Shown here: in pieces, positions 6,302-23,236 of the stretch | Layout of the letters: every line of letters starts with the position of its first letter | Numbering within the stretch: the first letter of the stretch is position 1 | IMG/VR virus record: IMGVR_UViG_3300020406_000011 | Coordinates: 1 to 36,198 of that record | Strand: one strand, 5' to 3' | Length of the DNA: 36,198 nt | DNA from: a virus | Translations under genes and position numbers: made by a program | The notes under the pieces: generated by a model | Seen by the model: only the letters and a program-made list of their open reading frames with translations | What the model was told of the DNA's origin: nothing | Databases searched by the model: none

Positions 6302-6303
6302 CT

Positions 6304-7609: not shown

Positions 7610-9184
7610 ATGAAAATTGAAGAAATTTGTATAGTCGGTGGCGGTACCGCAGGATGGATGACCGCTGCTACTCTGATTAAATCATTTCCAAAAAAGAAGA
7701 TTACTCTAATTGAGTCGGATGATATACCTACCATAGGTGTGGGTGAGTCAACCACTCAATTTTTTCGTGACTGGACACTTGAAATGAATCTACCAGATAA
7801 CTGGATGGATGAGTGTGAAGCGACATATAAGTACAGTGTAAAATTTAAAAACTTTAGTGAGTATGGTGACTTCCATTATCCTTTCTGGGATGGTGGTGCT
7901 CCTAAGAATAGTAGTTGTGATATATTAGAATGGTTCTTCCATTATAGAGCAACAAATGGTAATCCAGAGGTATCGTTTGCTGAGTGGATGACACCATATT
8001 GGAGAATTATAGAAGAGAACAAAGTTGTTATTAATGACTTTGAATCATTCAAAGGATATAAAAACGCAGGGTATCATCTTGACGCAGTTAAGTTTTCTAA
8101 TATGCTTAAGAGAGACTTCTGTCTCCCACGTGGTGTAGTACATCATATTGACACTATCAAAGATTGTATCAAAGATACTGATGGTAATATAGCAAGTCTT
8201 GTAGGTGAGAAAGACATCTATCTTGCTGATATGTTTGTAGACTGTACTGGATTTAGATCACAGATACTAGGTGGTATGATGGGTATAGAGTGGGATGAGT
8301 TTCCATTCCTTATCAACAACAAAGCATGGACAGTTAGGACAGCATATACAGATAAGTCAACAGAGATGACTAACCATACACAGTGTACAGCACTAGACAA
8401 TGGTTGGGTATGGCACGTGCCACTCACTACTAGAATAGGTACAGGATATAATTTCTCTGACAAGTTTATATCAGAAGAAGATGCGTTAGCAGAGTTTAAA
8501 GAATTTCTAGGTGATAGACCATTGCTATCTGAACCACGTTTAGTAAAATGGAAGAACGGTGTAGCAAAGAAAATCTGGACTAAGAACGTTGTAGGTATAG
8601 GATTATCAGCAGGATTTATAGAACCATTAGAATCTAATGGACTACTATCTGTACATAATTTTGCTGTGTTCTTAGCAGATGCTTTGTCAACACATGAGGG
8701 TAAAATCAATACTCTCATCAGAGCACAGTTCAATCGTAGATGTAGAAAACATATGGGACAGTTTTCTCACTTCGTTGGTAATCATTTCATGATGACAACA
8801 AAAGATAACAGTGAGTATTGGAGATATATTTCAGAGAACATTAATTATATGGATGATAAGGCAGAGAAAGAGGCAGAGACACATGGTGGGTATCCACTAG
8901 ATGATTTCCCATTGAAAATGGATGAGTTAACAAATTTTAACTTTAGCAATTTAGCGGGAAACTCCTTTATTTGTGCGGGTCATATGCATTCTCCACTTAC
9001 ACCATGGACATGTGATTATATGGAAAAGAGAGGAAACGTTGACATCTCCTCCTTCCGAGTGCTATCATCAGGGTATACACTTGACCCCAATATACATGCT
9101 GAAATAGATCAGTTCCCTACACCAGAGGAATTTTACTATGAAGATGTTGCGGGTATAGATTTCCATCATTCATTACATGGTTAG
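7610..9184 (+). CDS. Flavin-dependent halogenase, tryptophan halogenase family (copy A)
   Basis: This 524-residue protein has the N-terminal FAD-binding motif GGGTAGW (residues 10-16) and an IGVGEST segment at 42-48. The family's catalytic lysine is present as K74 in ATYKYSVKF, matching K79 of PrnA by eye. The halogenase motif WxWx[IV]P is W266-V-W268-H-V-P271, with Val where Ile is usual. The FxxPxxSxG motif is FIEPLESNG, with the catalytic glutamate as E341. Length fits PrnA/RebH-type enzymes (about 530). Such enzymes use FADH2, O2 and halide to make HOX and transfer halogen to an electron-rich substrate. No flavin reductase is seen in this window, so FADH2 would have to come from elsewhere. 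Cyanophage enzymes of this family are known (VirX1 from phage Syn10 is a halogenase). Substrate unknown; free Trp, a peptide or another aromatic are all possible. Confidence 0.9.
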   Translation: MKIEEICIVGGGTAGWMTAATLIKSFPKKKITLIESDDIPTIGVGESTTQFFRDWTLEMNLPDNWMDECEATYKYSVKFKNFSEYGDFHYPFWDGGAPKNSSCDILEWFFHYRATNGNPEVSFAEWMTPYWRIIEENKVVINDFESFKGYKNAGYHLDAVKFSNMLKRDFCLPRGVVHHIDTIKDCIKDTDGNIASLVGEKDIYLADMFVDCTGFRSQILGGMMGIEWDEFPFLINNKAWTVRTAYTDKSTEMTNHTQCTALDNGWVWHVPLTTRIGTGYNFSDKFISEEDALAEFKEFLGDRPLLSEPRLVKWKNGVAKKIWTKNVVGIGLSAGFIEPLESNGLLSVHNFAVFLADALSTHEGKINTLIRAQFNRRCRKHMGQFSHFVGNHFMMTTKDNSEYWRYISENINYMDDKAEKEAETHGGYPLDDFPLKMDELTNFNFSNLAGNSFICAGHMHSPLTPWTCDYMEKRGNVDISSFRVLSSGYTLDPNIHAEIDQFPTPEEFYYEDVAGIDFHHSLHG

Positions 9185-10730
9185 TATTTGTATACTTGGC
9201 GGTGGTTCATCTGGATGGATGACAGCTGCTGCTTTTGCTAAAGTATTTCCACATTATAAAATCAGATTGATAGAGGATCCAACTCAGAAACCTTTAAGTG
9301 TTGGAGAGTCTACTCTTGGTCATTTCAATCGTTACCTAGATTGTCTAGGTATAAAAGATAAAGATTGGATGAAAGATTGTAATGCCACATATAAACTATC
9401 AATTCAATTTACTAACTGGCAGAATAAGGGTGACGTATTTCAATATCCCTTTGGGGATTACGATTATACTAACGGTGACTTTGTAACATGGTATTATCTA
9501 CATCATACATTTCCTACCCTATTTCCTGATACAACATACTGTGAGTTCTATAACCCTGTTAGTTACCTAGCAAGTACAAATAAGATCGTAGACAACAATG
9601 ACTATGTACGTAATTTTAAAAGGCACTGGGATACATCATATCATTTTGATGCTACAAAATTTGGTGGTTGGTTACGAGATAATCTCTGTCAAACTGTAGA
9701 GCATACTAAAGCAAAAATTGTATCAACATTCTATGATGATAAGTGTAATGTCAAGGGAGTTGTAGATGAGTATGGTAATGACTATAAGGCAGATTATTTT
9801 ATAGACTGTACTGGATTTGGATCTCTGCTCCTAGAGAAGTCTATGGATCAAAGTTTTATAGAGTTCCCTAATCTACCAAATGATTCTGCTGTAGTCACAC
9901 ACGTACCATATAATGACAAACAGACAGAAATGAAAAACCAGACAGATGGTTATGCCATGGATAATGGTTGGTGTTGGACTATACCACTGTGGGAAAATAT
10001 TGGAAAGGGATATGTATATTCTAGTAAGTTTATTGATAAGTTTAAGGCAGAGGAAGAGTTTAGAAAACACCTAGATTTGAATTGCTTCACATCTAAGGAA
10101 TGGGATGGTAAAGTAGAACATATAAAATTTAGACATGGTAAGAGAAGACTAGGATGGTGTCAGAATGTTATTGGTATTGGTCTATCATATGGTTTCTTAG
10201 AACCATTAGAATCTACTGGTTTGTTTACTACACATGAGAACATACTTAGATTAGTAGATACGTTCCAACGTAGAGACGGACATATTACACAGATAGACAT
10301 AGATGGGTACAATCATGCTGTACACTATGAACTAGAAGCAATGAAAGAGTTTGTAGAAATGCACTACTATCTTTCTCCTAGAAATGATACAGAATATTGG
10401 AGACACTATAGTAACAAGTCACCACTATCTTATGAACACATGTTTGATAAGGTAGTTAGATCACCTCGTCTATATCAAGAGTTTATACATTGTTGGAACA
10501 TATCTAACGCACCTAAAGATATGGGTGGACTACCATATATCGCAGCAGGGTTAGGATATCATCCTATCACTAAGACTGACTATGACTATAAGATGGCAAC
10601 CGAACAGGTTTCAATAGCATATCTTCATGATGTTAAAGACAGACATTTCCATTATCGAAAATCTGTGCTAAAATACTTAAAGGATCAACCGTCACACTAC
10701 GAGTATTTGAGAGAAAGGATATATGTTTAA
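9177..10730 (+). CDS. Flavin-dependent halogenase, tryptophan halogenase family (copy B)
   Basis: This 517-residue second halogenase starts inside an 8-base overlap (ATGGTTAG) with copy A. It has GGGSSGW at residues 8-14, SVGEST, catalytic lysine K73 in ATYKLSIQF, the classical W265-C-W267-T-I-P270 motif, and FLEPLESTG with glutamate E345. It is clearly related to copy A but strongly diverged, so the duplication is old or the two were acquired separately. Copy B is closer to the canonical motif (Ile in WxWxIP; EPLEST rather than EPLESN). Active-site residues known to be needed for chlorination in PrnA are present in both, so both are probably active. They may act on different positions or substrates. 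Confidence 0.9.
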   Translation: MVSICILGGGSSGWMTAAAFAKVFPHYKIRLIEDPTQKPLSVGESTLGHFNRYLDCLGIKDKDWMKDCNATYKLSIQFTNWQNKGDVFQYPFGDYDYTNGDFVTWYYLHHTFPTLFPDTTYCEFYNPVSYLASTNKIVDNNDYVRNFKRHWDTSYHFDATKFGGWLRDNLCQTVEHTKAKIVSTFYDDKCNVKGVVDEYGNDYKADYFIDCTGFGSLLLEKSMDQSFIEFPNLPNDSAVVTHVPYNDKQTEMKNQTDGYAMDNGWCWTIPLWENIGKGYVYSSKFIDKFKAEEEFRKHLDLNCFTSKEWDGKVEHIKFRHGKRRLGWCQNVIGIGLSYGFLEPLESTGLFTTHENILRLVDTFQRRDGHITQIDIDGYNHAVHYELEAMKEFVEMHYYLSPRNDTEYWRHYSNKSPLSYEHMFDKVVRSPRLYQEFIHCWNISNAPKDMGGLPYIAAGLGYHPITKTDYDYKMATEQVSIAYLHDVKDRHFHYRKSVLKYLKDQPSHYEYLRERIYV

Positions 10731-11520
10731 AAAGAAAAAACCAAGAGCAAGATTTTTTAGTCTACATCCTGGCGTACATACTCTACATCCTATTACTAAA
10801 GCAGCAGAACTTGATAGGGATTGGGTTAGTAAAGAAAGAGATGATTATAAAGATAGATTAGGTAAGTGCCCTTTCAATAAAGTATTACAAGGAGAACAAC
10901 ATCAAGCTAATTCTATAGGTCGTTGTCCTGCTATAAATTCTATTATGAGGACAGGTTATATTGTGTATGCTCCTGCTGACTTTAAGGTTCATACAAATGG
11001 AGACAAACATACTATACTGTTCACTACCACTCCTTTTAATCCACCATCATCAGATTACGTTGTACTCCATGAGACAGATGTAACAAAATGGTTGATGGAT
11101 TCTAGTAAGGATACTACAATAGATCAAGTAGTAAAAATCAATACTACTTGGCGAGTACAGGCAGATGATGATGTCGTATTTCTCCAGACAAAAGTACCTT
11201 TCGTTAATGAAACTCGCTTCTCAGCAGTATCTGGTATTCTCGATCCACGTACTGCTTATGAAGTCAATGTCCAACTCTTCTGGCACGTGATGGAGGGTGA
11301 TGTAACAATTAAAGCAGGGACACCTCTCTGCTGTTATGTACCCATGTCACGTAGGATGTTAGAAGACTTAGACATGTCTATTGATGTAGCAACTCCTACA
11401 GATTATAGACTTGAAGAAGAGTTCATGTACACTGCGTACAATCAGTTTCCTGAGAATGTTAACACCACTCAGAGACAAATCAAAACTAATAAAATATTAA
11501 AGAAGTATTGGAATGGGTGA
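10723..11520 (+). CDS. Hypothetical protein, possibly DUF6065-like
   Basis: This 265-residue protein overlaps copy B by 8 bases (ATGTTTAA). It starts with a very basic stretch (MFKKKKPRARF). It has a CP-A-I motif in SIGRCPAINSIMRTGYIVYAP (pattern: CPAINSIMRTGYIVYAPADF) and later SGILDPRTAYEVNVQLFWHV followed by EGDVTIKAGTPLCCYVP. That layout, with CPA...GY/W...PADF and a beta strand ending in AGTPLCxYVP, reminds me of the DUF6065 family, members of which occur next to tryptophan halogenases; this assignment is from memory and uncertain. No catalytic motif is obvious; a beta-barrel or cupin-like fold is plausible. Its position fixed between halogenases and oxygenases suggests a partner protein. 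Confidence 0.55.
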   Translation: MFKKKKPRARFFSLHPGVHTLHPITKAAELDRDWVSKERDDYKDRLGKCPFNKVLQGEQHQANSIGRCPAINSIMRTGYIVYAPADFKVHTNGDKHTILFTTTPFNPPSSDYVVLHETDVTKWLMDSSKDTTIDQVVKINTTWRVQADDDVVFLQTKVPFVNETRFSAVSGILDPRTAYEVNVQLFWHVMEGDVTIKAGTPLCCYVPMSRRMLEDLDMSIDVATPTDYRLEEEFMYTAYNQFPENVNTTQRQIKTNKILKKYWNG

Positions 11521-12124
11521 CGTATCAATCCCTTTGTTTTCTGTCCCTGTAGTTAAGGGTAGAATAGTACCAGATGAGTATGCTGATGCTGCCACTGAGA
11601 CTGTGTTAAATCGTATCTTTCTTGATAGGAAGTTAGGTCAGTTTGAAGGTGAGTCAGGTTTATCTACAGGTCCTGATGAGATGAAAATACATGAAAAAGA
11701 AGAACTTAAGTGGTTAATGAAACCACTAGAATTTGCTGTCAAAGAATACTGGGTATACACTCTGGGATATAAGAAGATGGCAGATATTAAATGTAGAGAT
11801 GGTTGGGCAAACAAACACTTCGCAGGAGACACTACAGTAGAACATAGTCACAATGATGGATGGTGGGGTAGTTGTCAGATATCATGTGTATATTATTTTA
11901 GAAAACCAAAAGGATCTAGCAATATAAAATTCTGTAATCCAAATGATTATATCTTACGTAACCAACCTTATGCTATGATGAAGGGGATACATACTATAGC
12001 AAGTGAACTTCCTGCTGAACAATACGAGTATGTTCTTTTCCCATCATGGGTGAGACATAGAGTAGATCCTAGCACTGTAGGACCTCGTATAGCAATGTCA
12101 TTTAATTACTATGGATATGAGTAG
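11513..12124 (+). CDS. Putative Fe(II)/2OG-dependent oxygenase
   Basis: This 203-residue protein overlaps the previous gene by 8 bases (ATGGGTGA). The core reads TVEHSHNDGWWGSCQISCVYYF, containing H113-N-D115 as a possible HxD metal pair (H111 adjacent). Downstream FPSWVRHRVDPSTVGPRIAMSF supplies the distal H182 and the 2OG-anchoring R192. The spacing, strand pattern and [FP]SW-x-xH...R-x-x-x-SFN ending match the small phage 2OG-FeII oxygenase families. The substrate is unknown; these enzymes hydroxylate or otherwise oxidise proteins, nucleic acids or small molecules using O2 and 2-oxoglutarate. Which His is the true ligand cannot be decided from the sequence alone. Confidence 0.7.
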   Translation: MGDVSIPLFSVPVVKGRIVPDEYADAATETVLNRIFLDRKLGQFEGESGLSTGPDEMKIHEKEELKWLMKPLEFAVKEYWVYTLGYKKMADIKCRDGWANKHFAGDTTVEHSHNDGWWGSCQISCVYYFRKPKGSSNIKFCNPNDYILRNQPYAMMKGIHTIASELPAEQYEYVLFPSWVRHRVDPSTVGPRIAMSFNYYGYE

Positions 12125-12923
12125 ACTCCCTATATCTAAGAGGGTATATCAAGAGACAAAACCTATTTTCAAACCAGTGAGTGAGTGGTCATACACTTAC
12201 CACAGTAAGTATTGGATTGTCAGAGATATATTTAAAGAAGGTGGTCTAGATTTATTCAAGGACATCGCTAGTTCTTATCCTATTGTAGATGTTAACAATC
12301 ACGATGAGGACTTTGATCACAATCCTTTCATGGTACATCATCTACCATACTGGATCACACAACCTCTATGTGAGGCAGTGAGAGAATTTGTAATTAGAGA
12401 ACACTTTGGTCAAGGACCTGAAATGGAACTGATAGATGAACGTCTGTCAGAGTGGGGTAACGTATACTTTAAGGACGAGTGTCGTCCTCTAGTAAATTCA
12501 TATATCCCACACGTAGACTTTCCTGATGATGAGGGATGGATAGGAAACTTATGGTTAACAGAACATGAAGAAGGAAAAACAACAACAAACATCTATGACT
12601 ATAAAGGAGAGATTGACCAAGGACGGTACGATTTCCAACTCGATCCACGTCACCAACGGTACAAAGAGTGGCACAACTGGGTTGGTGACGGTAGAAACCA
12701 CGTCGACGGCTTCCAGAATTTTGATGGCAAAACTGCCTTCCACTGGGGATTCCGACAAGTAGGCAAGGCACCATGCGAACATGGCACTATGACAATTTAC
12801 AATGGCAACATACCACATTGCCCTTTTGTCGATGATAGTGTAGAATATAGATGGTCTCATTGCTTTGGTTTTAAATACAAATCATTAGCAAAGGTCTTTA
12901 AAGCACAAGAAGTTCCTGTTTAA
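12111..12923 (+). CDS. Putative Fe(II)/2OG-dependent oxygenase with HVD motif
   Basis: This 270-residue protein (263 if started at the in-frame ATG 12117, which gives the same 8-base ATGAGTAG overlap seen at neighbouring junctions) contains NSYIPHVDFPDDEGWIGNLW, with the HxD pair H134/D136 numbered from 12111. The distal His is H236 in GNIPHCPF, and R247 in VEYRWSHCFGF is a candidate 2OG-binding arginine. The middle (about 155-225) has a long, aromatic and His-rich insertion unlike the compact neighbours, and the DNA there is visibly richer in GC. It may belong to a DUF6445-like branch of the fold, but I am not certain. Confidence 0.65.
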   Translation: MDMSRLPISKRVYQETKPIFKPVSEWSYTYHSKYWIVRDIFKEGGLDLFKDIASSYPIVDVNNHDEDFDHNPFMVHHLPYWITQPLCEAVREFVIREHFGQGPEMELIDERLSEWGNVYFKDECRPLVNSYIPHVDFPDDEGWIGNLWLTEHEEGKTTTNIYDYKGEIDQGRYDFQLDPRHQRYKEWHNWVGDGRNHVDGFQNFDGKTAFHWGFRQVGKAPCEHGTMTIYNGNIPHCPFVDDSVEYRWSHCFGFKYKSLAKVFKAQEVPV

Positions 12924-13483
12924 TGTTTCTAGAAGAAATATTTCCTACCCCCATCTGGGGATTTGATCTTGATCTTGATGTAGACAGTATAAAATACTGG
13001 TGCTACGGATGTATGAAAGAGAATCCTGGCAGAGTTATATCTAACGTTGGTGGGTGGCAATCAGAAGATTATAGAGAGTTCGGTCAAACACCATTGACTG
13101 AACTTGTGTTGTATATTGTCAGAGAATCTCACAACATAGCAAAGGACATAGGTATACCTGAAGGTGATCGTTGGGTGGAGAATCTATGGGTCAATATCAA
13201 TCCAAAGTATTCTTACAATCAGGTACATGTACACCCAGAAGCAAGACTATCTGGTGTGTTCTATGTGTCAGCTCCTGAGAACTCAGGTAATATATGTTTT
13301 ACTAGATCTAATGGTTATTCTTTAGGAACGGTTGCTCCTAACTCTACTAGATACAGTAGTTGTGAATGGTGTTATCCACCAAAGAAAAACAGACTAATCA
13401 TATTTCCTGCTTGGCAGGAACATCACGTGAAAGCGAATCTATCTGATGAAGATAGAATATCAATATCATTCAATATAAGATGA
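12923..13483 (+). CDS. 2OG-Fe(II) oxygenase, 2OG-FeII_Oxy_5/TIGR02466-like
   Basis: This 186-residue protein overlaps the previous stop as TAATG. It shows the signature of the small phage oxygenase family: an N-terminal FPTPIW, then WVNINPKYSYNQVHVHPEA (H102, H104), LSGVFYV, and a C-terminal LIIFPAWQEHHVKANLSD with distal H167/H168 and R178 in DRISISFNIR. This arrangement matches the 2OG-FeII_Oxy_5 type often seen in marine T4-like phages and bacteria. The substrate is not predictable. It is the best-recognised oxygenase of the cassette and supports reading its less typical neighbours as the same fold. Confidence 0.85.
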   Translation: MFLEEIFPTPIWGFDLDLDVDSIKYWCYGCMKENPGRVISNVGGWQSEDYREFGQTPLTELVLYIVRESHNIAKDIGIPEGDRWVENLWVNINPKYSYNQVHVHPEARLSGVFYVSAPENSGNICFTRSNGYSLGTVAPNSTRYSSCEWCYPPKKNRLIIFPAWQEHHVKANLSDEDRISISFNIR

Positions 13484-14100
13484 GAGAGTTTAGAAACTTT
13501 TTACCCACCTCGTTAGCAAACGAGTTACATGATAAGATGACATCTAATGAGTTCCCTTGGTTCTGGTTAGATGATGTTACTGTATCTCCAGAGGAACGAT
13601 CAGAAGTTCCTGAGTTTTACAGGAGTCAACCTGGCATGCACCATACACCATATCGTGATGGTAACATGAGTACATGGTACGGTGACTTTAGTTTCTTCTT
13701 TCATTACATCGTTGATGTTATGAATCTAGATTACAAAGACTGGTATCTATCCAGACTAAGATGTGGATTAAACTTCCCTACATTCAGAGAAGAACATTTC
13801 CTACACAATCAACCACACGTTGACTTTCCTGAGTCATCAGGTGTTGATCATTACACATGCCTATACTACGTAAATAATTCCGATGGTCCGACAGTCGTAT
13901 TTGAAGAGAAAAAAGAATCGCCCAAGTATACGATTAAGTATAAATGCGATCCCGAAAAAAATAAGTTATTCGTTTTTGACGGTAAGCACTATCATGCTAG
14001 CTCATGTCCTCAACATCATGACGCACGGTTAGCAATAACTATCAACATTGTAAAACGTCAACCTATTCAGAATGTTAAGCCGTTTCTTCGCGTCGCGTAA
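13480..14100 (+). CDS. 2OG-Fe(II) oxygenase (HxD...H...R)
   Basis: This 206-residue protein starts in an ATGA overlap. The core LHNQPHVDFPESSGVDHYTC gives H113/D115. Then YYVNNSDGPTVVFEE is the usual jelly-roll strand pair, NKLFVFDGKHYHASSCP contains the distal His (H172, or H170), and R183 in DARLAITINI should bind 2-oxoglutarate. All four expected residues are present, so it is probably active. This C-terminal pattern (FDG-x-x-YHAS...R-x-x-x-x-INI) is shared by many phage oxygenases of prolyl-hydroxylase-like fold. Bases 13880-13980 use unusual CG-containing codons compared with the surroundings. Confidence 0.8.
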   Translation: MREFRNFLPTSLANELHDKMTSNEFPWFWLDDVTVSPEERSEVPEFYRSQPGMHHTPYRDGNMSTWYGDFSFFFHYIVDVMNLDYKDWYLSRLRCGLNFPTFREEHFLHNQPHVDFPESSGVDHYTCLYYVNNSDGPTVVFEEKKESPKYTIKYKCDPEKNKLFVFDGKHYHASSCPQHHDARLAITINIVKRQPIQNVKPFLRVA

Positions 14101-14764
14101 CCTATACTGCGATGATGGAGTGGTTCACATTCGCAATTTTTTAGACGACCCAACTCAATACCTATCATGGAAAAGTGTAGAGCATTGTCTTACACGTGAT
14201 GATATATTCTGGGAACTCATAGACAAGAAAGGACATAAGAAGAATCTTCAACAGTACAAACCATACTGGTCTCCTGTACCATGTCAGGATAAGAACACAA
14301 TATATGAACACATACAAAGCAAAGAAAGTTTTGTCATCACAGGTTACAGTAAAGTAAATAGAAAAGCAAATGACCTGTGTATAGAGATAGAGAGATCTCT
14401 AGATGTTAATGTAGATATACATGTGTATGGAGGAAAAGGTGAGGCACCTTCATTCAAGACACATTGTGATCACTTCTCTAATTTTATTATACAGTCTGTA
14501 GGAGAAACATATTGGAAAGTATATAAGAACAAGCAAACATCCTTACTTGCTTGTAGGAATGACAAACCATTAAACTATGATATAATGGATATTGAATGGG
14601 AGGGTATTTTAAAGCCTGGCGATCTCCTCTATATACCTGATAGAGCATACCATCAAGCTCTACCAGATAGACCTAGGTTGTCCATGAGTATTCCTTGTGT
14701 ACCAACTGTATTAAACCCTGAGTTTTATGACAGACGTAACTACAAAATACAAACCGATAATTAA
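14072..14764 (+). CDS. JmjC/cupin-like Fe(II)-dependent oxygenase
   Basis: This 230-residue protein overlaps the previous gene by 29 bases in another frame. It contains SFKTHCDHFSNFIIQSVGET with H131-C-D133 as the HxD pair, followed by YWKVYKN, and a distal H194 in GDLLYIPDRAYHQALP. The order HxDxxxxxxxQ...G-x-x-x-W-x-x-Y...L-x-P-G-D-x-L-Y-I-P-x-x-x-x-H is that of JmjC/ribosomal-oxygenase-like (cupin-type) proteins, distinct from the 2OG-FeII_Oxy neighbours. Known relatives hydroxylate ribosomal proteins or other proteins, which makes a protein substrate attractive, but this is inferred. Short for the family, it lacks an obvious C-terminal winged-helix domain. Confidence 0.75.
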   Translation: MLSRFFASRNLYCDDGVVHIRNFLDDPTQYLSWKSVEHCLTRDDIFWELIDKKGHKKNLQQYKPYWSPVPCQDKNTIYEHIQSKESFVITGYSKVNRKANDLCIEIERSLDVNVDIHVYGGKGEAPSFKTHCDHFSNFIIQSVGETYWKVYKNKQTSLLACRNDKPLNYDIMDIEWEGILKPGDLLYIPDRAYHQALPDRPRLSMSIPCVPTVLNPEFYDRRNYKIQTDN

Positions 14765-15344
14765 AGTTGTTAAGAACTGCGTTCCTATTCCATTAGTCGA
14801 TTACTTGTACACAGAGTTCAGACTGATGAGGGATGCCCTACTTGCCATGGGAAGCAATGAGGGTTATAATGACCCTACAGTTCCTAACACTTTCTCTTGG
14901 TATTCACCCCTGTGCTTTGAAGCATTGGGTCTACATTTGAAACCTCAAGTGGAAAAAATACTGAAGACAAGTGTCGAACCAACCTACTCTTATGGACGCA
15001 TATATACTGAAGGAAGTGAACTCGTCAGGCATACTGACAGACGTTCCTCAGAGATAGCAGTCAATCTGTCTATTGCTCGTGACATCAAGTGGGATCTAAA
15101 TTTTTTATGGGAGGAGCAAACTCTACATATTGACTTAGAACCAGGTGATGTGGTAATATACAGTGGATCAATTCCACACTGGAGAGAGAAGTATACAGGC
15201 AAAGAGCATATCAATGCTTTCATGCAGTATGTCTATGCTGATGGTCTACATAAAGATTTAAAGTATGACACACGTCCTTACCTCGCCACACCTTTTGCTC
15301 TCGCACAGCAAGATATACAAGATGAAGTAAAAAATTATGTCTGA
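14727..15344 (+). CDS. 2OG-Fe(II) oxygenase, prolyl-4-hydroxylase-like
   Basis: This 205-residue protein overlaps the JmjC-like gene by 38 bases. TYSYGRIYTEGSELVRHTDR contains H102-T-D104, preceded by the usual Y-x-x-G-x-x-x-x-x-H pattern. Strand residues EIAVNLSI and LDLEPGDVVIYSGSIPHWRE (read as LEPGDVVIYSG...PHWRE) give the distal H151. A lysine or arginine shortly after (K156 or nearby) could anchor 2OG, as in prolyl 4-hydroxylases. It is the last oxygenase of the cassette and ends in an 8-base overlap with the next gene. Substrate unknown; prolyl hydroxylation of a protein is one possibility. Confidence 0.75.
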   Translation: MTDVTTKYKPIIKVVKNCVPIPLVDYLYTEFRLMRDALLAMGSNEGYNDPTVPNTFSWYSPLCFEALGLHLKPQVEKILKTSVEPTYSYGRIYTEGSELVRHTDRRSSEIAVNLSIARDIKWDLNFLWEEQTLHIDLEPGDVVIYSGSIPHWREKYTGKEHINAFMQYVYADGLHKDLKYDTRPYLATPFALAQQDIQDEVKNYV

Positions 15345-15642
15345 CGCACCAGAAACAGCAGGAATGGGTACCATTGAGAATGCTCCAAAAGAATGGACAT
15401 TTGATATGGTATGGGAAGACTTCGTTGCTCAGTTAACTGCAGCACGAGAAGAAGTTAGAGAGAAGGAGGAGGAGTTAGATAAGAACTCTAGTCTCATGAC
15501 TCGTATTGATCTAACTGATCTTAATGACGCTCGCACTAAAGTGAACCGTCTAGAAGGTGCTTGTGAAGCACTTGATATTATACGCACCACCGTCCTAGGT
15601 GTCGAATCTAAAATCCAACGTACTGAGGAAACTACAGCATGA
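15337..15642 (+). CDS. Small coiled-coil protein
   Basis: This 101-residue protein overlaps the oxygenase by 8 bases (ATGTCTGA). A short N-terminus (SDAPETAGMGTIENAPKEW) precedes a highly charged heptad-like helix (about residues 35-65, with REEVREKEEELDKNSSL) and a second helix to the end. There are no catalytic motifs or membrane segments. Cyanophage genomes often carry such small helical proteins between fibre and neck genes; I do not recognise a function. The pairing with the next, also helical, gene suggests they interact. Confidence 0.6.
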   Translation: MSDAPETAGMGTIENAPKEWTFDMVWEDFVAQLTAAREEVREKEEELDKNSSLMTRIDLTDLNDARTKVNRLEGACEALDIIRTTVLGVESKIQRTEETTA

Positions 15643-15839
15643 CCATTGAAGAAATGATTACAGACTTTACTGAGCAACAGAGTAAGGTAAAAGCAGAAGT
15701 GGCAGAAATAAAAGATGCCCTTAAAACAAGAGAAGACCAACTACTGCGTCTACAAGGAGCAATAGAAGGTCTTAGATTAGCAACGCAGGACAAAGGAGAG
15801 GAAGCAGAAGCAGCTCCTAAACCCGCTAAGGTTAAATAA
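15639..15839 (+). CDS. Small coiled-coil protein
   Basis: This 66-residue protein starts in an ATGA overlap with the previous gene. One long charged helix (about residues 1-50, VKAEVAEIKDALKTREDQLL) is followed by an acidic, Ala/Pro/Lys-rich tail ending APKPAKVK. It stops one base before the stop codon of the minus-strand gene, so the two converge without a gap. Function unknown. Confidence 0.55.
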   Translation: MTIEEMITDFTEQQSKVKAEVAEIKDALKTREDQLLRLQGAIEGLRLATQDKGEEAEAAPKPAKVK

Positions 15840-16127
15840 TTAGTCTACAAATTTAAGGAACTTACTTGATATCAAGTCATGTTTCTCATCAAACTCTAAA
15901 CGTCTACGGGCATGGGTCTTATCTCCTTCAACAATGAGATAGTACCTTTTACCGTAGATGTTTTTTGTTATGCCTATAGCAACGATAGGTCTATCGTCAT
16001 ATTTGTCGCCAACGTCAAATGGAATAGTTTCTGAAGTACCATTGAAGGGCAGCTCGGTTCTACTCCAGAGGTGTTCTCTGAGTCTATATTCACCTGTTGG
16101 TGCTTCTCTGTCTCTAAGTCCAGCCAT
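15840..16127 (-). CDS. Small hypothetical protein, only minus-strand gene
   Basis: This 95-residue protein begins MAGLRDREAPTGEYRLREHL, with the ATG at 16127 reading leftwards. It has a beta-rich centre (RPIVAIGITKNIYGKRYYLI) and a basic C-terminal half (THARRRLEFDE). Composition is protein-like, and no competing frame on the + strand is convincing. Its stop abuts the end of the coiled-coil gene and its start lies 42 bases from the divergent giant gene. A possible sigma70-type promoter (TTTACT, 18-base spacer, TATAGT, reading left at 16189-16160) sits upstream. The opposite direction hints at earlier or separate expression. Function unknown. Confidence 0.65.
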   Translation of the reverse strand: MAGLRDREAPTGEYRLREHLWSRTELPFNGTSETIPFDVGDKYDDRPIVAIGITKNIYGKRYYLIVEGDKTHARRRLEFDEKHDLISSKFLKFVD

Positions 16128-16133
16128 GAGTTC

Positions 16134-16141
16134 TATAAATA
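16134..16141 (+). promoter_or_regulatory. Putative T4-type late promoter box
   Basis: TATAAATA, an exact late-promoter consensus, lies in the 42-base divergent gap, 28 bases before the ATG of the giant protease-containing gene at 16170. It is the best-placed late promoter in the window because it is not inside a coding region. Confidence 0.65.
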
Positions 16142-16159: not shown

Positions 16160-16189
16160 ACTATAATCAATGGCAACCCTTTTAGTAAA
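16160..16189 (-). promoter_or_regulatory. Possible sigma70-like promoter for minus-strand gene
   Basis: Read leftwards, TTTACT (16189-16184) and TATAGT (16165-16160) are separated by 18 bases, and the start would fall about 25 bases before the minus-strand ATG. The match is partial and the -35 part lies inside the divergent gene, so this is only a candidate. Confidence 0.25.
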
Positions 16190-19100
16190 GGTAGCAGGTT
16201 CTATGACTCTTGATGGTGCTCAAGCACTAATAATGGGTCAGCATAGTTATTTAGAATTTGTAAGATCTTTCCCTTCATTTAGAACTATCCAGTTTACAGC
16301 ACCATCAAAGGATCAATCATCTATAGATGAGATCAGAAGTTTGGCGTATGTTCATGGTGCTACCTATGATAAAGAGTATGAAATAGATCCAGTGCTAGGT
16401 GGTGAGACAGCAATAGCAGAGTGGGAGACAGATATAATTGAAACTAACGCAGAAGAAGTAGAGGGAACAAGAAATACAAGAATTATTACATCAAGCGGTG
16501 GTGGAACAATATATGTAAAGGTAGCAAACTATGGTGGTAACTTAAGATTTCAGTTGTCATCTACACAGGGTGGTGTCTACAGTCGTATCGCAACCTATAG
16601 TGGTTTCGTACAAGGTGGTACATATACCTTTGATCAGAGTGACTCATCTAACACAGGTCATAGACTAGCATTTTCTTTAACACCTGATGGTACACATAAA
16701 AATGGTACACAGTACACATATAATGTGACAACAGCGGGTACACCTGGTTCATCTGGTGCGTATACTCGTATCACAGTAGATAGTGTTACAGCATCTGTAC
16801 TATACTGGTACAACGTATCTAACTCTGACTACGGTGCTTATGATGATAGTCCATTACGTTATGGTGCTATTTGTATACATGACTTTTGGCATCTAGATCG
16901 TATCTCAAAACAAAGCAGGAGTTTTTTAAATGGAGTATATAACACTACGGAAGAAGCTGACGGTGTTGACGTTTATGTGCTTGATACTGGAATTAGAGGA
17001 GCTTCGAGACCGACTGGAACCAACGTAGGACTACATCCAGAGTTATTTGATGTAGACAATAACGCTGACCTCAATGGTTTATCAGAGCAACAGTCATACA
17101 GAGTATATGAGGTAACAGGATATAGTTCAGGATATACTGTCAATGGTGTAGCTAACAGTAATGAAGATGACAACGGACACGGTACATACTGTGCTAACCT
17201 CATTGGTGGTATCAAATCAGGTGTCGCACACAAGACAAAATTCTATGCTCTGAAATGTTTTAGTTCAGGTGGTGGTGGAACTTTGTCAGGTATCATGAAC
17301 GCATATCAGGCAGTCATCAACCACAATGACAGTGGAAATGCCAGCTACAAAGGTAATACTAGACCCGCAGTTATCAACGCATCCTTTGGTTCTACACAAC
17401 CTAGTGGTTCTTTCCCGTATGTTGAACTAAACGAGGCAGGAACTGACGCAGGATTTGACGTAGAACTATATGACGAAACAGAGAAAGACGTAGTAGATGC
17501 TAATATTGTACTCGTTAGATCAGCGGGTAACGGATTTAAAGACTCTAGTGACAGTTTCTTAGGACCTCTACAAGGTAGATACCAACCAGGTACTAGATCA
17601 GCAGGATATCCAGACGGTGACGTAAACACAGTTGACACAAATATCGCGTCTATCTCTGTAGGTGCTACAGACTACAATGATTTCTGGGCAGACTTCTCTA
17701 ACTATGGTTCTGCTGTAACAGTTACAGCACCAGGTCAACATATAACTGTACCAAACTATAACTGGACAACTAACACCCCATATACATCAGTGGGTAATTA
17801 TAGTGTTATACAAGGTACATCGTTCTCAGGTCCTATCACAGCTGGTGTAGTATCTCAGTTCATAGCAGCTAACAGTTATACACTTAGTACAGGTACACTA
17901 CCAGTCTTATGTAAAAACTGGATCAGAGGATCAGGAGATCCTGGCAACTTCGCTGCTACAAGTACAACAGCGTACCCTGCTAATACAGCTCACGAATATA
18001 AGTTACCTACAGACCCATTCGCAGTCAGTTCAGGTAGTAATGTAATCAAAGTATACTATCCTTCCCTGTATTCATCTGCCTTCTTGAACAAGATAGGTAA
18101 GAAACTACAGCTAAGAATAGCAGCTACCAGTTTATCAATAGGTGGTCTTAATATTAAAGAAGTATCTGGCACATGGTATGGTATCACAGGACAGGATGCT
18201 GCTAATAACTATATCGAGATAACTGTACTTAACAGTGGTACAAGTAATGAAGTGGGTGGTGGAGATAATAACTATGCTTGCGTAATATCTGACACACATG
18301 AGGGAACTGACGGACCTACATTTGGTAATGTCACACTATATGCTGAGTTAGACTCAGAGGAAGCAGGACATACAGGTCGTACTATTCAACAGATACCAGT
18401 AGATACAGGTGTTGACTTTGACTATAGTCAGACAGGTGCTTTGATTAGTAAGGTCAGAGGACTGTTCACTAGATACATCTCTAAGACTATCACATGGTTC
18501 TATAACGGTAATATAAGTTCAACAGGAGGACAAGGTGTTACCAATGGAAGAATATATTGGGATACAACAGGAGTCACAGCTGGTAGTTACTTTTATCAAT
18601 GCTCTGCTCACAATGACATGTATGGCACAATCACTTTATCTGGATCAGGTGGTACTGCCAAAAGATATTGGAACGTAACCGCTTCAGGTAGTAGCAACTA
18701 TACTTTAACAGAACAGAATGTCAATCCTGTAGTCAATACATATAACTTTGCTGTTACTGCTAGTGGTAGTCAAGACTATATCATATCTGGTTCTGATAGG
18801 ACTGGTTCAATCAGTGGTAATGACCCTGCTATTGTAGTACAAGTTGGCGATACAATAAACTTTAATATGAATGCGGGTGGCAGTCACCCAACTGTTTTCA
18901 AGACTGTACAGGGAACTGGTTCAAGTAATCAAGTATCAACAGGTACATACACAGGTGGTGGAGCATCAGCATCTGGTACTGTCAAGTGGATCACAACTGG
19001 TGTACCGATTGGCGTATACTACTATCAGTGTACTGCTCACAACAATATGTACGGTACTATCACTGTACAGGCAAACAGCACAGCAGGACAGAGTGGTGAT

Positions 19101-22100
19101 GATGTAGGTATCAATGCCACACCAGGTGACATTCTAGTATTTGACACTACAGCAGGATCTAGTCATCCATTCTATATCAAGACAGCACAGGGAACTGGTA
19201 GTGGTAATCAAGTAACTACAGGTAAGATAGGTGGTGACGGATTCGCTCACAATACTTCTATCAGTAAAGACATAGGTGTTGATGAGTTCAAGAGTTATGC
19301 TAATGAGACATTTAACGCAGGAGAAGCATATACTCTTTCTGGTGATGATATATCAGGTACAGGATTAACATTCAATACATCAAGTGGTGTTCTATCAGGT
19401 ACAGTTACATCATCCTATCAGGATACATTCTTTGACATCGTAGTTACAGAGGATAGTTCTGGAGAGGTAAAAAACTATAACTTCCATACACTAGGTACAG
19501 GTGTTGTAATTACAATCGGAGATCAACCTTCGGATGCGACAATAGAAGCAGGAGCAGGAACTAACGCACAGTTCGGTCCTCTTAACGCAAGTATATCTGA
19601 CAGTTCTACTATCAACTACCAGTGGCAGTATAGTACAGGTGGTGCTTGGACAAGTATTAGTAGTCTATCAGGACATAGTGGAGAGACAACAGATACACTT
19701 ACAGTAGATGATGACTACTCATACAACGGATGGCAATACCGATGCGTTTGTAGTTCTAATACAGCAGCTGCTGATACAACATCTAACTCTGCTACATTAA
19801 CTGTAACTAGAGTAGTAACGATATCACAGCAACCACAAAACCAATCAGCTGTATCACCAGCTGCTGCTACATTTAATGTAACTGCTAGTACTGCTGATGG
19901 AGCATCATTATCATACGGATGGGACAAGTCAGAAGATAATGTAGTATGGCATCAAATACCAGGTGCTACAAGTTCAGCATATACAACTACAGCTACCACA
20001 TATGACAGTGGTGGTACACCTCCCGCATCTTTTGATGCTGATAACGGTGACTACTATAGAGTCAGAGTCAATGCTATCGGTGCTTCAGAGATAACATCTA
20101 CGAGTGCCCAGTTATCAGTTACAAGAACTATAACAGTAGACACACACCCTACCAATACTACAGGAGCAGTAGGTGGTACAGCAGACTTCACAGTTGCTGC
20201 TAGTCTTTCTGATGGAGACAGTGCTGACCTTAACTACCTATGGCAAGTATCACTTGACGATGGACAAAACTGGTCAGGTCTTTCAGGAGCAACTACAGCA
20301 TCATATACAACACCTACACTTTCAGCTCAGTTTGATGAGTATCAGTATAGATGTTTAATATCTGCGGCTGGTGCTAATAATACATTCTCTAATGCTGCTA
20401 CCTTACAGGTAGAGTCAGTATCAGTTAGCGTAGTTTCTGATCCTAGTGACAGAACTATAAATGAGGGACAGGCAACAGGTTTCACAGCAGTTGGTACAGT
20501 AACAACTTCTGCTATCAGTGCGTTACTCAACTCTTCCTTTGGAGTTGGTAATTGGACAACACCAGCTGGTGGTGGTGCTTCTGCTAAGGCAGAGACAGCT
20601 GCTGACCCAGAGCTATACAACTCTATATGGTCTAGTCATACACCCTCAGTCCAGTATCAGTGGCAAAGAAAAGATGGTGATGAAACTATCACTGTCACAG
20701 TGGGCACAGATACAGTTAATGGACAGGCAACAGGAGTATTCTATTTCAATGGCGTAGAGAAACCTAATAACTTTGAATTTGAAAGAGGAGCAACATACTT
20801 ATTTGATCAATCAGATTCTTCTAACATTACTTGGAACACTCAATCTCACCCATTGATGTTTAGTACAACAGAGGATGGAGATCTAGTAGGAGGTGGACAA
20901 CACTATGATCCTACAACCACTGTCTACAGATTAGATGGTGTCATCAAAACTATGGCAGAGTACACTGCTCAGTTCTCTGGTGCTACAGTTAGAACTGTAA
21001 CGTTCACACCACCAAGTAACGCACCTAATACACTTTGGTATTGGTGTCACTTCCACACAGGTCAGGGTAACTCAATGATTATGACTGATGAGTGGAGTGA
21101 TATCAGTGGTGCTACAAGTCCTACTTACAACACAGGAACAGCAACTTACGCAGCAGATAATGCTGATCAGTATCGTTGTAAGCTTTCGGCTATAGGTGCT
21201 GACGCTGATGTATTCACCTCAGCCGCATTGCTAACCGTCTACAGGACTCATAGTGTAACTTCTGAACCAGTCAACGCAACAGGTAATGAAGGAGGCACAT
21301 CATCATATACTGTAGCGGGTACAACATCAAGTGGTTCACACACATATCAGTGGAGTAAATCTGATAACGGTGTTGACTACAATACTATACCAGGTGCGAC
21401 AAGTGCTACTTACACCACTCCTGCTCTAGTATTTGCTGATGATAATGACGACAGATATAAGTGTACACTAAGTCTAGTAGGTGCTCAGAGTGATATAGAA
21501 TCAACCTATGCTGTACAGACAGTTCTTAGAGTTATTTCTATTCAAACTCATCCACAACCACAAACTATTATTGAAGGACAGACAGCAACCTTTAGTATCG
21601 GTGCTTCTATTACCAGTGGAGCATTGAACTACCAGTGGCAGAAGTCAACTAACAGTGGTGCTGATTGGGCAAATATAAATGGTGCGACAAGTGCTAGTTA
21701 TACTACACCCACACAACCATTCCCAACAGTCAATAATGAATATCGTTGTGTATTATCTAACTCTAATGCTATATCAGTCACATCAAACTCTGCTACTATA
21801 ACTGTTAATGAGTCTGAGTTCGTAGAAGCAGCTGCTACTATGGAGGTCAATATAGACGACACAACTAACTTGACATTCAACAGACAACCTACATTTACAG
21901 CAGGAGCATTTATATCACAGTACGCAGGATCAACACATCAAGCATCGTTCTGGATAATCAAGAGAGTGGCAGATAACGCAACCGTATATGATACATCACA
22001 GATCACTGTACCTGACTTATCACAAGGTGATACTGGTAACTTGACTACGTTTACAGTACCAGCTGGTACACTTGATTTCGCAGTCACATACTCTGTACAA

Positions 22101-22427
22101 GTCAAGTATAAGGATAACGCAGGACTACAAAGTAATTACTCATCTCCTGTACAGTTTGCTACACCTGTAGTAGATCAACCAGAAGTACAAACTATTACTC
22201 CTTCATTCAATCCTACAATCAACGTTCTAACTCCTGAGATCAAGGCAGGATATGGACATAACTCAACTGACTGGCAGTTCTCACAGGGAGATACTTTCAT
22301 TAACATTGAACATCAATCGTTAGGAAACTCTACTAACCTACAGTCTTATACATTACCAGGTGACGTTACACTGTTACCTACAACTACATATTATGTAAGA
22401 GTGAGATTCAACGTGGATACAGTCTAA
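16170..22427 (+). CDS. Giant structural protein with subtilisin-like (S8) protease, cupredoxin-like and Ig-like domains
   Basis: A 2085-residue protein. Residues 1-85 may be a prodomain-like or attachment region. At about 105-230 lies a degenerate cupredoxin-like segment. At about 255-575 is a subtilisin-type domain with the complete triad: D272 in VYVLDTG, H337 in DNGHGTYCA, S551 in QGTSFSGP, plus oxyanion N454 in SAGNG. After it come cupredoxin-like units with C-x2-H-x2-M ligands (C811/H814/M817 and C954/H957/M960), a putative Ig (He_PIG)-like unit near 1050-1100, then about six Ig-like domains (1110-1885, motif YQWQ...GATSxxYTTP). One of these is split by another cupredoxin-like domain (about 1503-1640, C1626/H1629/M1636). 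The end (about 1890-2085) looks fibronectin-like. A virion-surface role in binding and cleaving host envelope proteins is inferred; no signal peptide is seen. The protease could also act in maturation. Confidence 0.85.
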   Translation: MATLLVKVAGSMTLDGAQALIMGQHSYLEFVRSFPSFRTIQFTAPSKDQSSIDEIRSLAYVHGATYDKEYEIDPVLGGETAIAEWETDIIETNAEEVEGTRNTRIITSSGGGTIYVKVANYGGNLRFQLSSTQGGVYSRIATYSGFVQGGTYTFDQSDSSNTGHRLAFSLTPDGTHKNGTQYTYNVTTAGTPGSSGAYTRITVDSVTASVLYWYNVSNSDYGAYDDSPLRYGAICIHDFWHLDRISKQSRSFLNGVYNTTEEADGVDVYVLDTGIRGASRPTGTNVGLHPELFDVDNNADLNGLSEQQSYRVYEVTGYSSGYTVNGVANSNEDDNGHGTYCANLIGGIKSGVAHKTKFYALKCFSSGGGGTLSGIMNAYQAVINHNDSGNASYKGNTRPAVINASFGSTQPSGSFPYVELNEAGTDAGFDVELYDETEKDVVDANIVLVRSAGNGFKDSSDSFLGPLQGRYQPGTRSAGYPDGDVNTVDTNIASISVGATDYNDFWADFSNYGSAVTVTAPGQHITVPNYNWTTNTPYTSVGNYSVIQGTSFSGPITAGVVSQFIAANSYTLSTGTLPVLCKNWIRGSGDPGNFAATSTTAYPANTAHEYKLPTDPFAVSSGSNVIKVYYPSLYSSAFLNKIGKKLQLRIAATSLSIGGLNIKEVSGTWYGITGQDAANNYIEITVLNSGTSNEVGGGDNNYACVISDTHEGTDGPTFGNVTLYAELDSEEAGHTGRTIQQIPVDTGVDFDYSQTGALISKVRGLFTRYISKTITWFYNGNISSTGGQGVTNGRIYWDTTGVTAGSYFYQCSAHNDMYGTITLSGSGGTAKRYWNVTASGSSNYTLTEQNVNPVVNTYNFAVTASGSQDYIISGSDRTGSISGNDPAIVVQVGDTINFNMNAGGSHPTVFKTVQGTGSSNQVSTGTYTGGGASASGTVKWITTGVPIGVYYYQCTAHNNMYGTITVQANSTAGQSGDDVGINATPGDILVFDTTAGSSHPFYIKTAQGTGSGNQVTTGKIGGDGFAHNTSISKDIGVDEFKSYANETFNAGEAYTLSGDDISGTGLTFNTSSGVLSGTVTSSYQDTFFDIVVTEDSSGEVKNYNFHTLGTGVVITIGDQPSDATIEAGAGTNAQFGPLNASISDSSTINYQWQYSTGGAWTSISSLSGHSGETTDTLTVDDDYSYNGWQYRCVCSSNTAAADTTSNSATLTVTRVVTISQQPQNQSAVSPAAATFNVTASTADGASLSYGWDKSEDNVVWHQIPGATSSAYTTTATTYDSGGTPPASFDADNGDYYRVRVNAIGASEITSTSAQLSVTRTITVDTHPTNTTGAVGGTADFTVAASLSDGDSADLNYLWQVSLDDGQNWSGLSGATTASYTTPTLSAQFDEYQYRCLISAAGANNTFSNAATLQVESVSVSVVSDPSDRTINEGQATGFTAVGTVTTSAISALLNSSFGVGNWTTPAGGGASAKAETAADPELYNSIWSSHTPSVQYQWQRKDGDETITVTVGTDTVNGQATGVFYFNGVEKPNNFEFERGATYLFDQSDSSNITWNTQSHPLMFSTTEDGDLVGGGQHYDPTTTVYRLDGVIKTMAEYTAQFSGATVRTVTFTPPSNAPNTLWYWCHFHTGQGNSMIMTDEWSDISGATSPTYNTGTATYAADNADQYRCKLSAIGADADVFTSAALLTVYRTHSVTSEPVNATGNEGGTSSYTVAGTTSSGSHTYQWSKSDNGVDYNTIPGATSATYTTPALVFADDNDDRYKCTLSLVGAQSDIESTYAVQTVLRVISIQTHPQPQTIIEGQTATFSIGASITSGALNYQWQKSTNSGADWANINGATSASYTTPTQPFPTVNNEYRCVLSNSNAISVTSNSATITVNESEFVEAAATMEVNIDDTTNLTFNRQPTFTAGAFISQYAGSTHQASFWIIKRVADNATVYDTSQITVPDLSQGDTGNLTTFTVPAGTLDFAVTYSVQVKYKDNAGLQSNYSSPVQFATPVVDQPEVQTITPSFNPTINVLTPEIKAGYGHNSTDWQFSQGDTFINIEHQSLGNSTNLQSYTLPGDVTLLPTTTYYVRVRFNVDTV

Positions 22428-23236
22428 TGGCAAAACCAAGTAGTAAAGCAACTCTAGCAGAGTATGCTTTAAGAAAACTAGGAGCACCAGTCCTAGAAAT
22501 AAACGTAGATGACGATCAGATAGATGATCTGATTGATGATGCTTTGCAGTTTTTCCAAGAGAGATCTACTGATGGTTATATTAGAACGTTTCTAAAGTAT
22601 AAGTTTGATCAAGCAACTATAGACTTGATGAAGACTGACACAACTACCACAGTGACACAGGTAGGTGCTAGACAACCAGAGTTTCTTGAGCAGAATAATT
22701 TTATTACTATGCCTGAGCATGTCACCTCAGTCATTAAGATATTTGATTTCACATCTAAGAATACTACCAACCTATTTGACGTAAGATACCAGTGGAGATT
22801 GAATGATCTCTGGGATCTAACTCAGACTGAGATTCTTACATATGAAATGGTAAACAGAAGATTAGAAGATATATACTGGTTACTAGAAGGACAGAAACAA
22901 ATAAGATTCCAAGCAAGAGGAGACAGGTTATACATGGATCTTGACTTCAAGACTGATGTAAACGATGGTGACTTTATAGTATTTGATGCTTACAGAGCAT
23001 TGGATCCTTCATCATTTACTACACTATATGATGATATTTTCCTCAAGAGATATACTACACAACTTATAAAGAGACAGTGGGGTCAGAACTTGAGTAAGTT
23101 CCAAGGTGCTCAGTTGCCAGGTGGTATCACTATGAATGGTGATCAAATATATCAACAGGCACAAACTGAGTTAGACAGGATAGAAGATGAGATGCTAATG
23201 AAGTATGAAATGCCCCCAATGGATATGATCGGATAA
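22427..23236 (+). CDS. gp13: Neck protein gp13
   Basis: This 269-residue protein starts at a TAATG overlap with the giant gene. It reads KATLAEYALRKLGAPVLEIN followed by VDDDQIDDLIDDALQFFQER, a hallmark of T4-like gp13 neck proteins, and ends with a helical region and an acidic/Met-rich tail (EMLMKYEMPPMDMIG). Gp13 with gp14 forms the neck ring that closes the filled head and receives the tail. It is somewhat shorter than T4 gp13 (about 309). It is the first gene of the conserved 13-14-15-16 block, each gene joined by short overlaps. Confidence 0.9.
   Translation: MAKPSSKATLAEYALRKLGAPVLEINVDDDQIDDLIDDALQFFQERSTDGYIRTFLKYKFDQATIDLMKTDTTTTVTQVGARQPEFLEQNNFITMPEHVTSVIKIFDFTSKNTTNLFDVRYQWRLNDLWDLTQTEILTYEMVNRRLEDIYWLLEGQKQIRFQARGDRLYMDLDFKTDVNDGDFIVFDAYRALDPSSFTTLYDDIFLKRYTTQLIKRQWGQNLSKFQGAQLPGGITMNGDQIYQQAQTELDRIEDEMLMKYEMPPMDMIG

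Follow-up and report, generated by a model that had tools for sequence, protein, structure and literature searches.

The reading frame at 16170..22427 (+ strand) of the DNA studied here, the 36,198-base IMG/VR virus record IMGVR_UViG_3300020406_000011 (referred to as the window), very likely encodes an S8 subtilase zymogen, as judged from sequence and predicted fold, and the enzyme is likely to be active. The deduced protein of 2085 aa (phrog_27200, 1816 bits) consists, in this order, of a predicted prodomain, a linker, a cupredoxin-like module, the S8 catalytic domain, a middle region, a cupredoxin module, Ig-like repeats and a C-terminal region. The best explanation at present, for and against which we see the balance as about even, is a late virion-type protein that carries a competent, proteinase K/aqualysin-like S8 zymogen, held by its prodomain and acting at the host surface.

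Origin of the DNA and gene order

The window is probably a fragment of a larger phage genome. Gene-by-gene profile matches identify its gene content as that of a T4-like cyanophage, and its nearest named phages by DNA are the Prochlorococcus phages MED4-213, P-HM2 and P-HM1. Tail fibre genes are followed by a halogenase/oxygenase island, the S8 gene, gp13 and gp14, and then by the tail sheath stabilizer, terminase subunits, sheath and tube. The island (7610-15344), situated between the tail fibre genes and the S8 gene, comprises two tryptophan halogenase, two 2OG-Fe(II) oxygenase, endonuclease V and ferrochelatase-like genes; at 4788-7059, three successive genes of ~250 aa each match the tail fibre assembly family phrog_863.

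A bacterial origin of the S8 gene was considered and rejected, the sole two relatives from the genome_contigs collection both being phage DNA. One is a 189,106-base phage contig in the assembly of the Prochlorococcus single cell AG-418-C09, where the S8 domain is 90% identical and the gene adjoins gp13. The other, a 7-kb contig binned as Dehalococcoidia in the GTDB collection, encodes the S8 gene together with gp13 and is thus phage DNA as well. The record ‘Acinetobacter phage MD-2021a’, in which an S8 protease lies among bacterial housekeeping genes, looks like host DNA and was set aside.

Identity and fold of the S8 catalytic domain

The first-pass annotation had described an intact subtilisin-type catalytic set, and all four residues were found in one reading frame at the positions and in the motifs given: D272 (nt 16983, VLDTG), H337 (17178, NGHGT), N454 (17529, SAGNG) and S551 (17820, GTSFSGP). 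Its interval of 16965-17895 covers the core with the motifs, and the domain as folded reaches further, over approximately residues 237-600 (16878..17969, + strand). When residues 237-599 were scanned alone, PF00082 (Peptidase_S8) matched residues 264-570 (nt ~16959-17879) with an E value of 1.2e-23 and a score of 84.3 bits against a curated cut-off of 21.8. A Pfam scan of the entire 2085-aa protein at E values up to 0.1 did not have S8 among its matches. Routine annotation of the full-length protein can miss the domain, and this may be the reason why orthologues have been deposited as hypothetical proteins.

A sequence profile search gave aqualysin, keratinase and proteinase K as best matches. 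Residues 237-599 were modelled with AlphaFold2 from 100 diverse viral S8 rows, with a mean pLDDT of 82 and a pTM of 0.87; in an earlier model from 17 close rows the catalytic domain was poor. The solved structures closest to the phage domain belong to the proteinase K/aqualysin group (S8A): the top 17 rows of the VIA-align search are aqualysin, Protein T, proteinase K and their kin (Z 31.5-33.8), among them Protein T (Z 33.8, 259 residues) and aqualysin I (Z 33.7, 258 residues) with an rmsd of 2.0 Å, and PCSK9 and subtilisin rank below this group at Z ~29-30. Pfam profile, motifs, conservation and predicted fold agree on a real S8 domain, and the objection that the triad might be unable to assemble is answered, at the level of the fold, by a predicted model that matches S8 structures.

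Conservation was followed in an alignment of 85 rows, the window and 84 loci, many of which are near-duplicates and 80 of which are the best 80 of 118 confirmed matches in one scan. D272 and H337 are kept in every row and N454 and S551 in 84 of the 85, far more often than chance would give. The exception (L037) is a reading frame that stops at 334 aa; Asp, His, Asn and Ser are retained in 84/84 rows that reach all four positions. An alignment of 100 rows of diverse viral S8 domains, which had been picked as S8 hits, likewise shows no variation at these residues. For the catalytic domain, dN/dS was 0.10-0.18 in ten comparisons (dS saturated in the distant ones), and for linker residues 76-105 it was 0.18-0.81 with the same ten relatives and the same saturation. 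The S8 domain is, by sequence and model, under purifying selection. A dead S8 fold that serves just as a structural or binding module has a precedent of sorts in cyanophage S-CAM1, where a degenerate S8-like domain has Glu in place of Asp and shows that loss of an S8 catalytic residue is possible. Complete retention of the four residues in the rows that reach them and the low dN/dS of the catalytic domain speak against such a fate here, and we regard it as the most improbable of the explanations discussed in this contribution.

Predicted prodomain and linker

Residues 1-71 (16170..16382, + strand) are predicted by AlphaFold2 to fold as strand-helix-strand-strand-helix-strand, with a pLDDT of 73-90 for this block, and are followed by a fast-evolving stretch (residues about 72-109, 16383..16496, + strand) that is predicted to be disordered (pLDDT <50). 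The model containing the prodomain has a whole-model mean pLDDT of 53.6 and a poor catalytic part. With this low-confidence model, VIA-align placed the propeptide-bearing chains of PCSK9, pro-subtilisin E and pro-Tk-subtilisin from model residue 1 onwards (Z 16-20 over 255-282 residues), whereas the alignment of mature enzymes started at about residue 240 (Z ~15, ~181-196 residues). A prodomain-type fold is positioned against the catalytic domain in the model, the mean confidence of which is low. A Pfam scan of residues 1-102 gave no hit, including no match to inhibitor I9, and hhalign found no significant match between the prodomain and other phage S8 prodomains. The prodomain assumed by the first-pass annotation is thus recovered at fold level, by the AlphaFold2 model together with VIA-align: residues 1-71 are predicted to be an inhibitor-like prodomain with a linker as in self-activating zymogens, and linker residues 72-109 would be the place of autoprocessing.

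Self-cleavage of this kind is also what would be expected of a maturation protease that acts during assembly, on its own chain or on adjacent virion proteins, and lacks any target in the host. Processing of this sort is the strongest competitor of an action at the host surface. The prodomain and the fast-evolving linker fit it, and a cut in the own chain could free either the prodomain or the C-terminal Ig segment. Further points that bear on this rival come from the gene neighbourhood and are taken up below.

Cupredoxin and Ig-like modules

A cupredoxin-like module (residues 106-235, 16485..16874, + strand) lies between prodomain and catalytic domain. The C..H..M motif of this N-terminal module plus His164 is present in 65/85 rows; the motif has been lost in the clade of the window (18/85 rows), and the His position is gapped in 2. 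Downstream of the enzyme, residues 884-967 (18819..19070, + strand) match the Pfam family Copper-bind (E 1.4e-8) with the full His-Cys-His-Met set of H906, C954, H957 and M960. The Ig-like repeat region spans ~residues 1110-1882 (19497..21815, + strand; approximate boundaries from profile matches) and encloses a further cupredoxin-like insert near residues 1535-1640; the C-terminal repeats match the Ig-like chain 9ncf_S with an E value of 1.1e-29, the best stretch being residues 1642-1881. Cupredoxin-like modules with His-Cys-His-Met sets are thus found inside phage structural-type proteins, and their copper binding is putative. A loose count of such sets across homologues was set aside because the pattern is permissive.

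These profile matches confirm that Ig-like and cupredoxin modules are joined to the S8 domain. The accompanying view that modules of this type belong to secreted bacterial proteins and are foreign to phage virion proteins did not hold, since phage head, tail and structural families match these modules, as do cyanophage structural and tail fibre proteins and other cyanophage S8 proteins.

Late promoter, gene position and probable location of the protein

A T4-type late promoter, TATAAATA (16134..16141, + strand), precedes the ATG of the S8 gene by 28 nt and falls in the 42-nt gap between the starts of the S8 gene and the companion gene GC518. The exact sequence TATAAATA occurs within 60 nt of the start in 36/79 loci, compared to 0.34% of random 60-mers. 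If NATAAATA or CTAAATA is accepted, the values are 78/79 loci and 1.8% of random 60-mers, where the CTAAATA alternative was added after the sequences had been inspected and the loci are related to each other. Over the whole window TATAAATA was found 2 times, with 3.2 occurrences expected by chance; only its position is telling, not its window-wide frequency. Sullivan et al. (PMC3037559) searched with TATAAAT as the T4 late promoter.

The gene of the neck protein gp13 (head-tail adaptor Ad2; 22427..23236, + strand) is located directly downstream of the S8 gene. It was found at the expected distance in 72/84 loci; of the other 12, 11 have no more than 3,096 nt beyond the catalytic domain, and the twelfth is phage S-BM3 with a different neighbourhood. 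The slot before gp13 presumably corresponds to the short tail fibre and whisker genes in the T4 gene order. A large gene stands directly before gp13 in 6/11 other cyanomyovirus records read (S-SZBM1, ACG-2014d, P-RSM6, S-CAM1, S-WAM1 and S-RIM8), while S-SM2, Syn1, ACG-2014e and ACG-2014f have just small genes there and S-SCSM1 a gene of 128 aa annotated as tail fiber protein; because five of the 11 records lack a large gene, the slot is not always occupied by a large virion gene. The slot protein SSZBM1_200 of phage S-SZBM1 was detected in virions by mass spectrometry; homology between it and the S8 protein was rejected, as no BLASTP hit was obtained at E 1e-3. The PHROG hits of the S8 protein include no family named fibritin (wac) or gp12 and no gp21 prohead protease, the protease family listed being phrog_3677. 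Where papers on such phages use the word ‘subtilisin’ in the sections consulted, it denotes a domain of the tail sheath, which is encoded here by a separate ORF (32600-34564). A literature search for virion proteomics of the S8 protein or of P-HM1/P-HM2 returned none.

Gene position and late promoter support the earlier description as a structural-type protein, and from promoter and gene order we consider it likely that the S8 protein is carried in the phage particle. The detection of SSZBM1_200 in virions and the ‘virion protein’ label of another cyanophage S8 protein, SSCSM1_228, speak for the same location. The late promoter would equally suit an enzyme that is made late, freed at lysis and acts on debris or on the cell envelope, and subtilases are commonly secreted enzymes. 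Such a released enzyme would hardly be expected to be fused to ~1,500 aa of phage structural-type Ig/cupredoxin modules, nor its gene to adjoin gp13, and we think this explanation improbable. A takeover protease that cuts host proteins in the cytosol during infection would be in line with the N-terminus, at which no secretion signal is apparent by eye. The promoter is late-type and not early, a prodomain is predicted and the chain is a giant of structural type, all of which makes the cytosolic role very improbable.

A conserved companion gene

The gene directly upstream of the S8 gene, T4-GC518 (phrog_26228; 15840..16127, - strand), encodes 95 aa in the window and ~95-111 aa overall, and is preceded by a small homologue of T4-GC517 (phrog_580, 66 aa; 15639..15839, + strand). 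A Pfam scan of GC518 gave no match, and a comparison with solved structures only a chance-level hit (E 0.73). GC518 is found beside the S8 gene in 74/77 loci with at least 450 nt of upstream sequence, on the same strand in 65 and inverted in nine, namely the window and eight of its nearest relatives, so that the window differs in this respect from P-HM1 and most relatives. The three loci without it are S-BM3 and two contigs (L050 and L060), in which another reading frame terminates shortly before the S8 gene and which themselves stop soon beyond it; by eye this frame appears aminotransferase-like and resembles glutamate-1-semialdehyde aminomutase. An independent search with GC518 yielded 59 contigs, which are closely related and partly identical with the loci above. 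The S8 protein starts within 400 nt of GC518 in 44/47 of those with at least 450 nt downstream (at other distances in 3), and the S8 catalytic domain is encoded in 43/43 with at least 2,100 nt downstream. Within the phage collection GC518 is restricted to P-HM1, P-HM2 and MED4-213, which are those with the S8 gene before gp13.

Because the adjacency survives inversion of the gene, GC518 and the S8 protein appear to be functionally linked. A tentative extension, which we rate as possible though rather doubtful, is a two-gene unit of a virion-carried zymogen subtilase and GC518 as its dedicated partner, be it inhibitor, chaperone or assembly factor. GC518 would then prevent the protease from doing damage inside the host before release, and would be a starting point for learning how a phage restrains such an enzyme.

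The conserved companion and the fixed neighbourhood with virion genes can also be read in favour of the maturation protease introduced above. On the other hand, P-HM1 already encodes the usual gp21 prohead protease as a separate gene, and related cyanophages manage without an S8 domain (0/8 records chosen for gp13 only). Taken together we judge maturation unlikely, though a serious competitor.

Proposed function

We propose the following sequence of events for a host-surface protease. The enzyme would be the S8 domain, which by sequence and model has the complete catalytic set and is under purifying selection. The prodomain is predicted to fold and cap it and would subsequently be freed by self-cleavage in the linker. 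Promoter and gene order suggest that the protein is expressed late, along with gp13 and further virion genes, and would become located in the particle, probably in the tail or neck region. In the least certain step the Ig and cupredoxin modules may hold or present the enzyme, which might trim proteins of the host surface during adsorption or entry. That the protease is aimed at host surface proteins is a proposition to which we give somewhat less than even weight. The S-layer, which the first-pass annotation had suggested as a target, was dropped: nothing points to it, the relatives infect Prochlorococcus, and Prochlorococcus is not known to have an S-layer.

Among tail-borne enzymes known to breach the host surface, most cleave sugars or peptidoglycan. 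If active and zymogen-controlled on particles, the S8 protein would represent a different way to handle host surface proteins, which as receptors and shields play a part in phage resistance, in Prochlorococcus, the most abundant photosynthetic cell. The orthologues in P-HM1, P-HM2 and MED4-213, phages of a laboratory host, make the question directly testable.

Comparison with known systems

The S8 peptidase of P-HM1 and P-HM2 has been in print since 2010, when Sullivan et al. listed it among 70 genes shared only by these two phages, under cluster number 518 (PMC3037559). In the P-HM1 and P-HM2 records 518 is the small neighbour and 519 the S8 protein, off by one from the paper, and the single PF00082 match of P-HM1 is in the T4-GC519 protein; a search of the open-licence literature found nothing else on this peptidase. 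The window protein resembles the T4-GC519 proteins PHM1_104, PHM2_106 and CPMG_00018 (of P-HM1, P-HM2 and MED4-213) with 46-48% identity over residues 1-649, and shares with these phages the place before gp13 and the companion genes. In contrast to the window, their companion gene is not inverted, and their S8 proteins are deposited as ‘hypothetical protein’. The ‘peptidase S8’ of S-BM3 (WDS61281.1, 2648 aa, labelled T4-GC_519) has an S8 domain that is 36.6% identical and keeps the catalytic residues, but it differs in its N-terminal region and neighbourhood and has no gp13, late-promoter match or GC518.

More distant is SSCSM1_228 of phage S-SCSM1 (1411 aa; PF00082 E 2.9e-26), which like the window protein is a long protein of the tail-fibre region with an N-terminal extension and intact S8 motifs. 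Its BLASTP similarity is weak (E 0.011), laminin G/concanavalin-type modules replace the Ig and cupredoxin modules, and its locus is another one. It is labelled ‘baseplate wedge subunit (virion protein)’. By hand count 48 genes of the record are labelled virion protein, a translational repressor included, compared to 45 proteins reported as detected by mass spectrometry in S-SCSM1 (PMC9602691); label and detection list agree largely but not fully, and for this reason detection of SSCSM1_228 is not certain. The jumbo phages Atu_ph07 (1251 aa) and Phosso (1287 aa) likewise combine an N-terminal extension with an S8 domain near tail genes, but in other hosts, in another neighbourhood and with only ~25% identity in the S8 domain; a scan with the S8 domain of Phosso found no relatives. 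The Anabaena phage A-1(L) has a baseplate hub with an embedded peptidase domain, which was tested on host cells (PMC10966104). It is comparable as a cyanophage virion protein with an embedded peptidase, although the description of the domain that we consulted does not tie it to S8.

At least 476 confirmed S8-encoding stretches were present in viral contigs, and of 83 S8 ORFs examined 53 had 500-1000 aa, 22 were shorter and 8 longer. PF00082 was found in 7/15 cyanophage records (four known carriers and three picked via phage names from the structure search) and in none of the remaining eight. ACG-2014e and S-CAM1 join their S8 domain to a cupredoxin-like module of similar kind. Among cyanophages, structural-type proteins that bear an S8 domain thus recur.

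Compared to aqualysin I, Protein T and proteinase K (Z 31.5-33.8, rmsd 1.9-2.2 Å over 254-261 residues), the phage domain is longer (117 residues between His and Asn, 97 between Asn and Ser) and embedded in a chain of 2085 aa. Aqualysin I, Protein T and proteinase K are secreted free enzymes. Among the features of the window protein and its locus, those without a precedent in our searches are the prodomain, the cupredoxin-like module between prodomain and enzyme, and the companion GC518.
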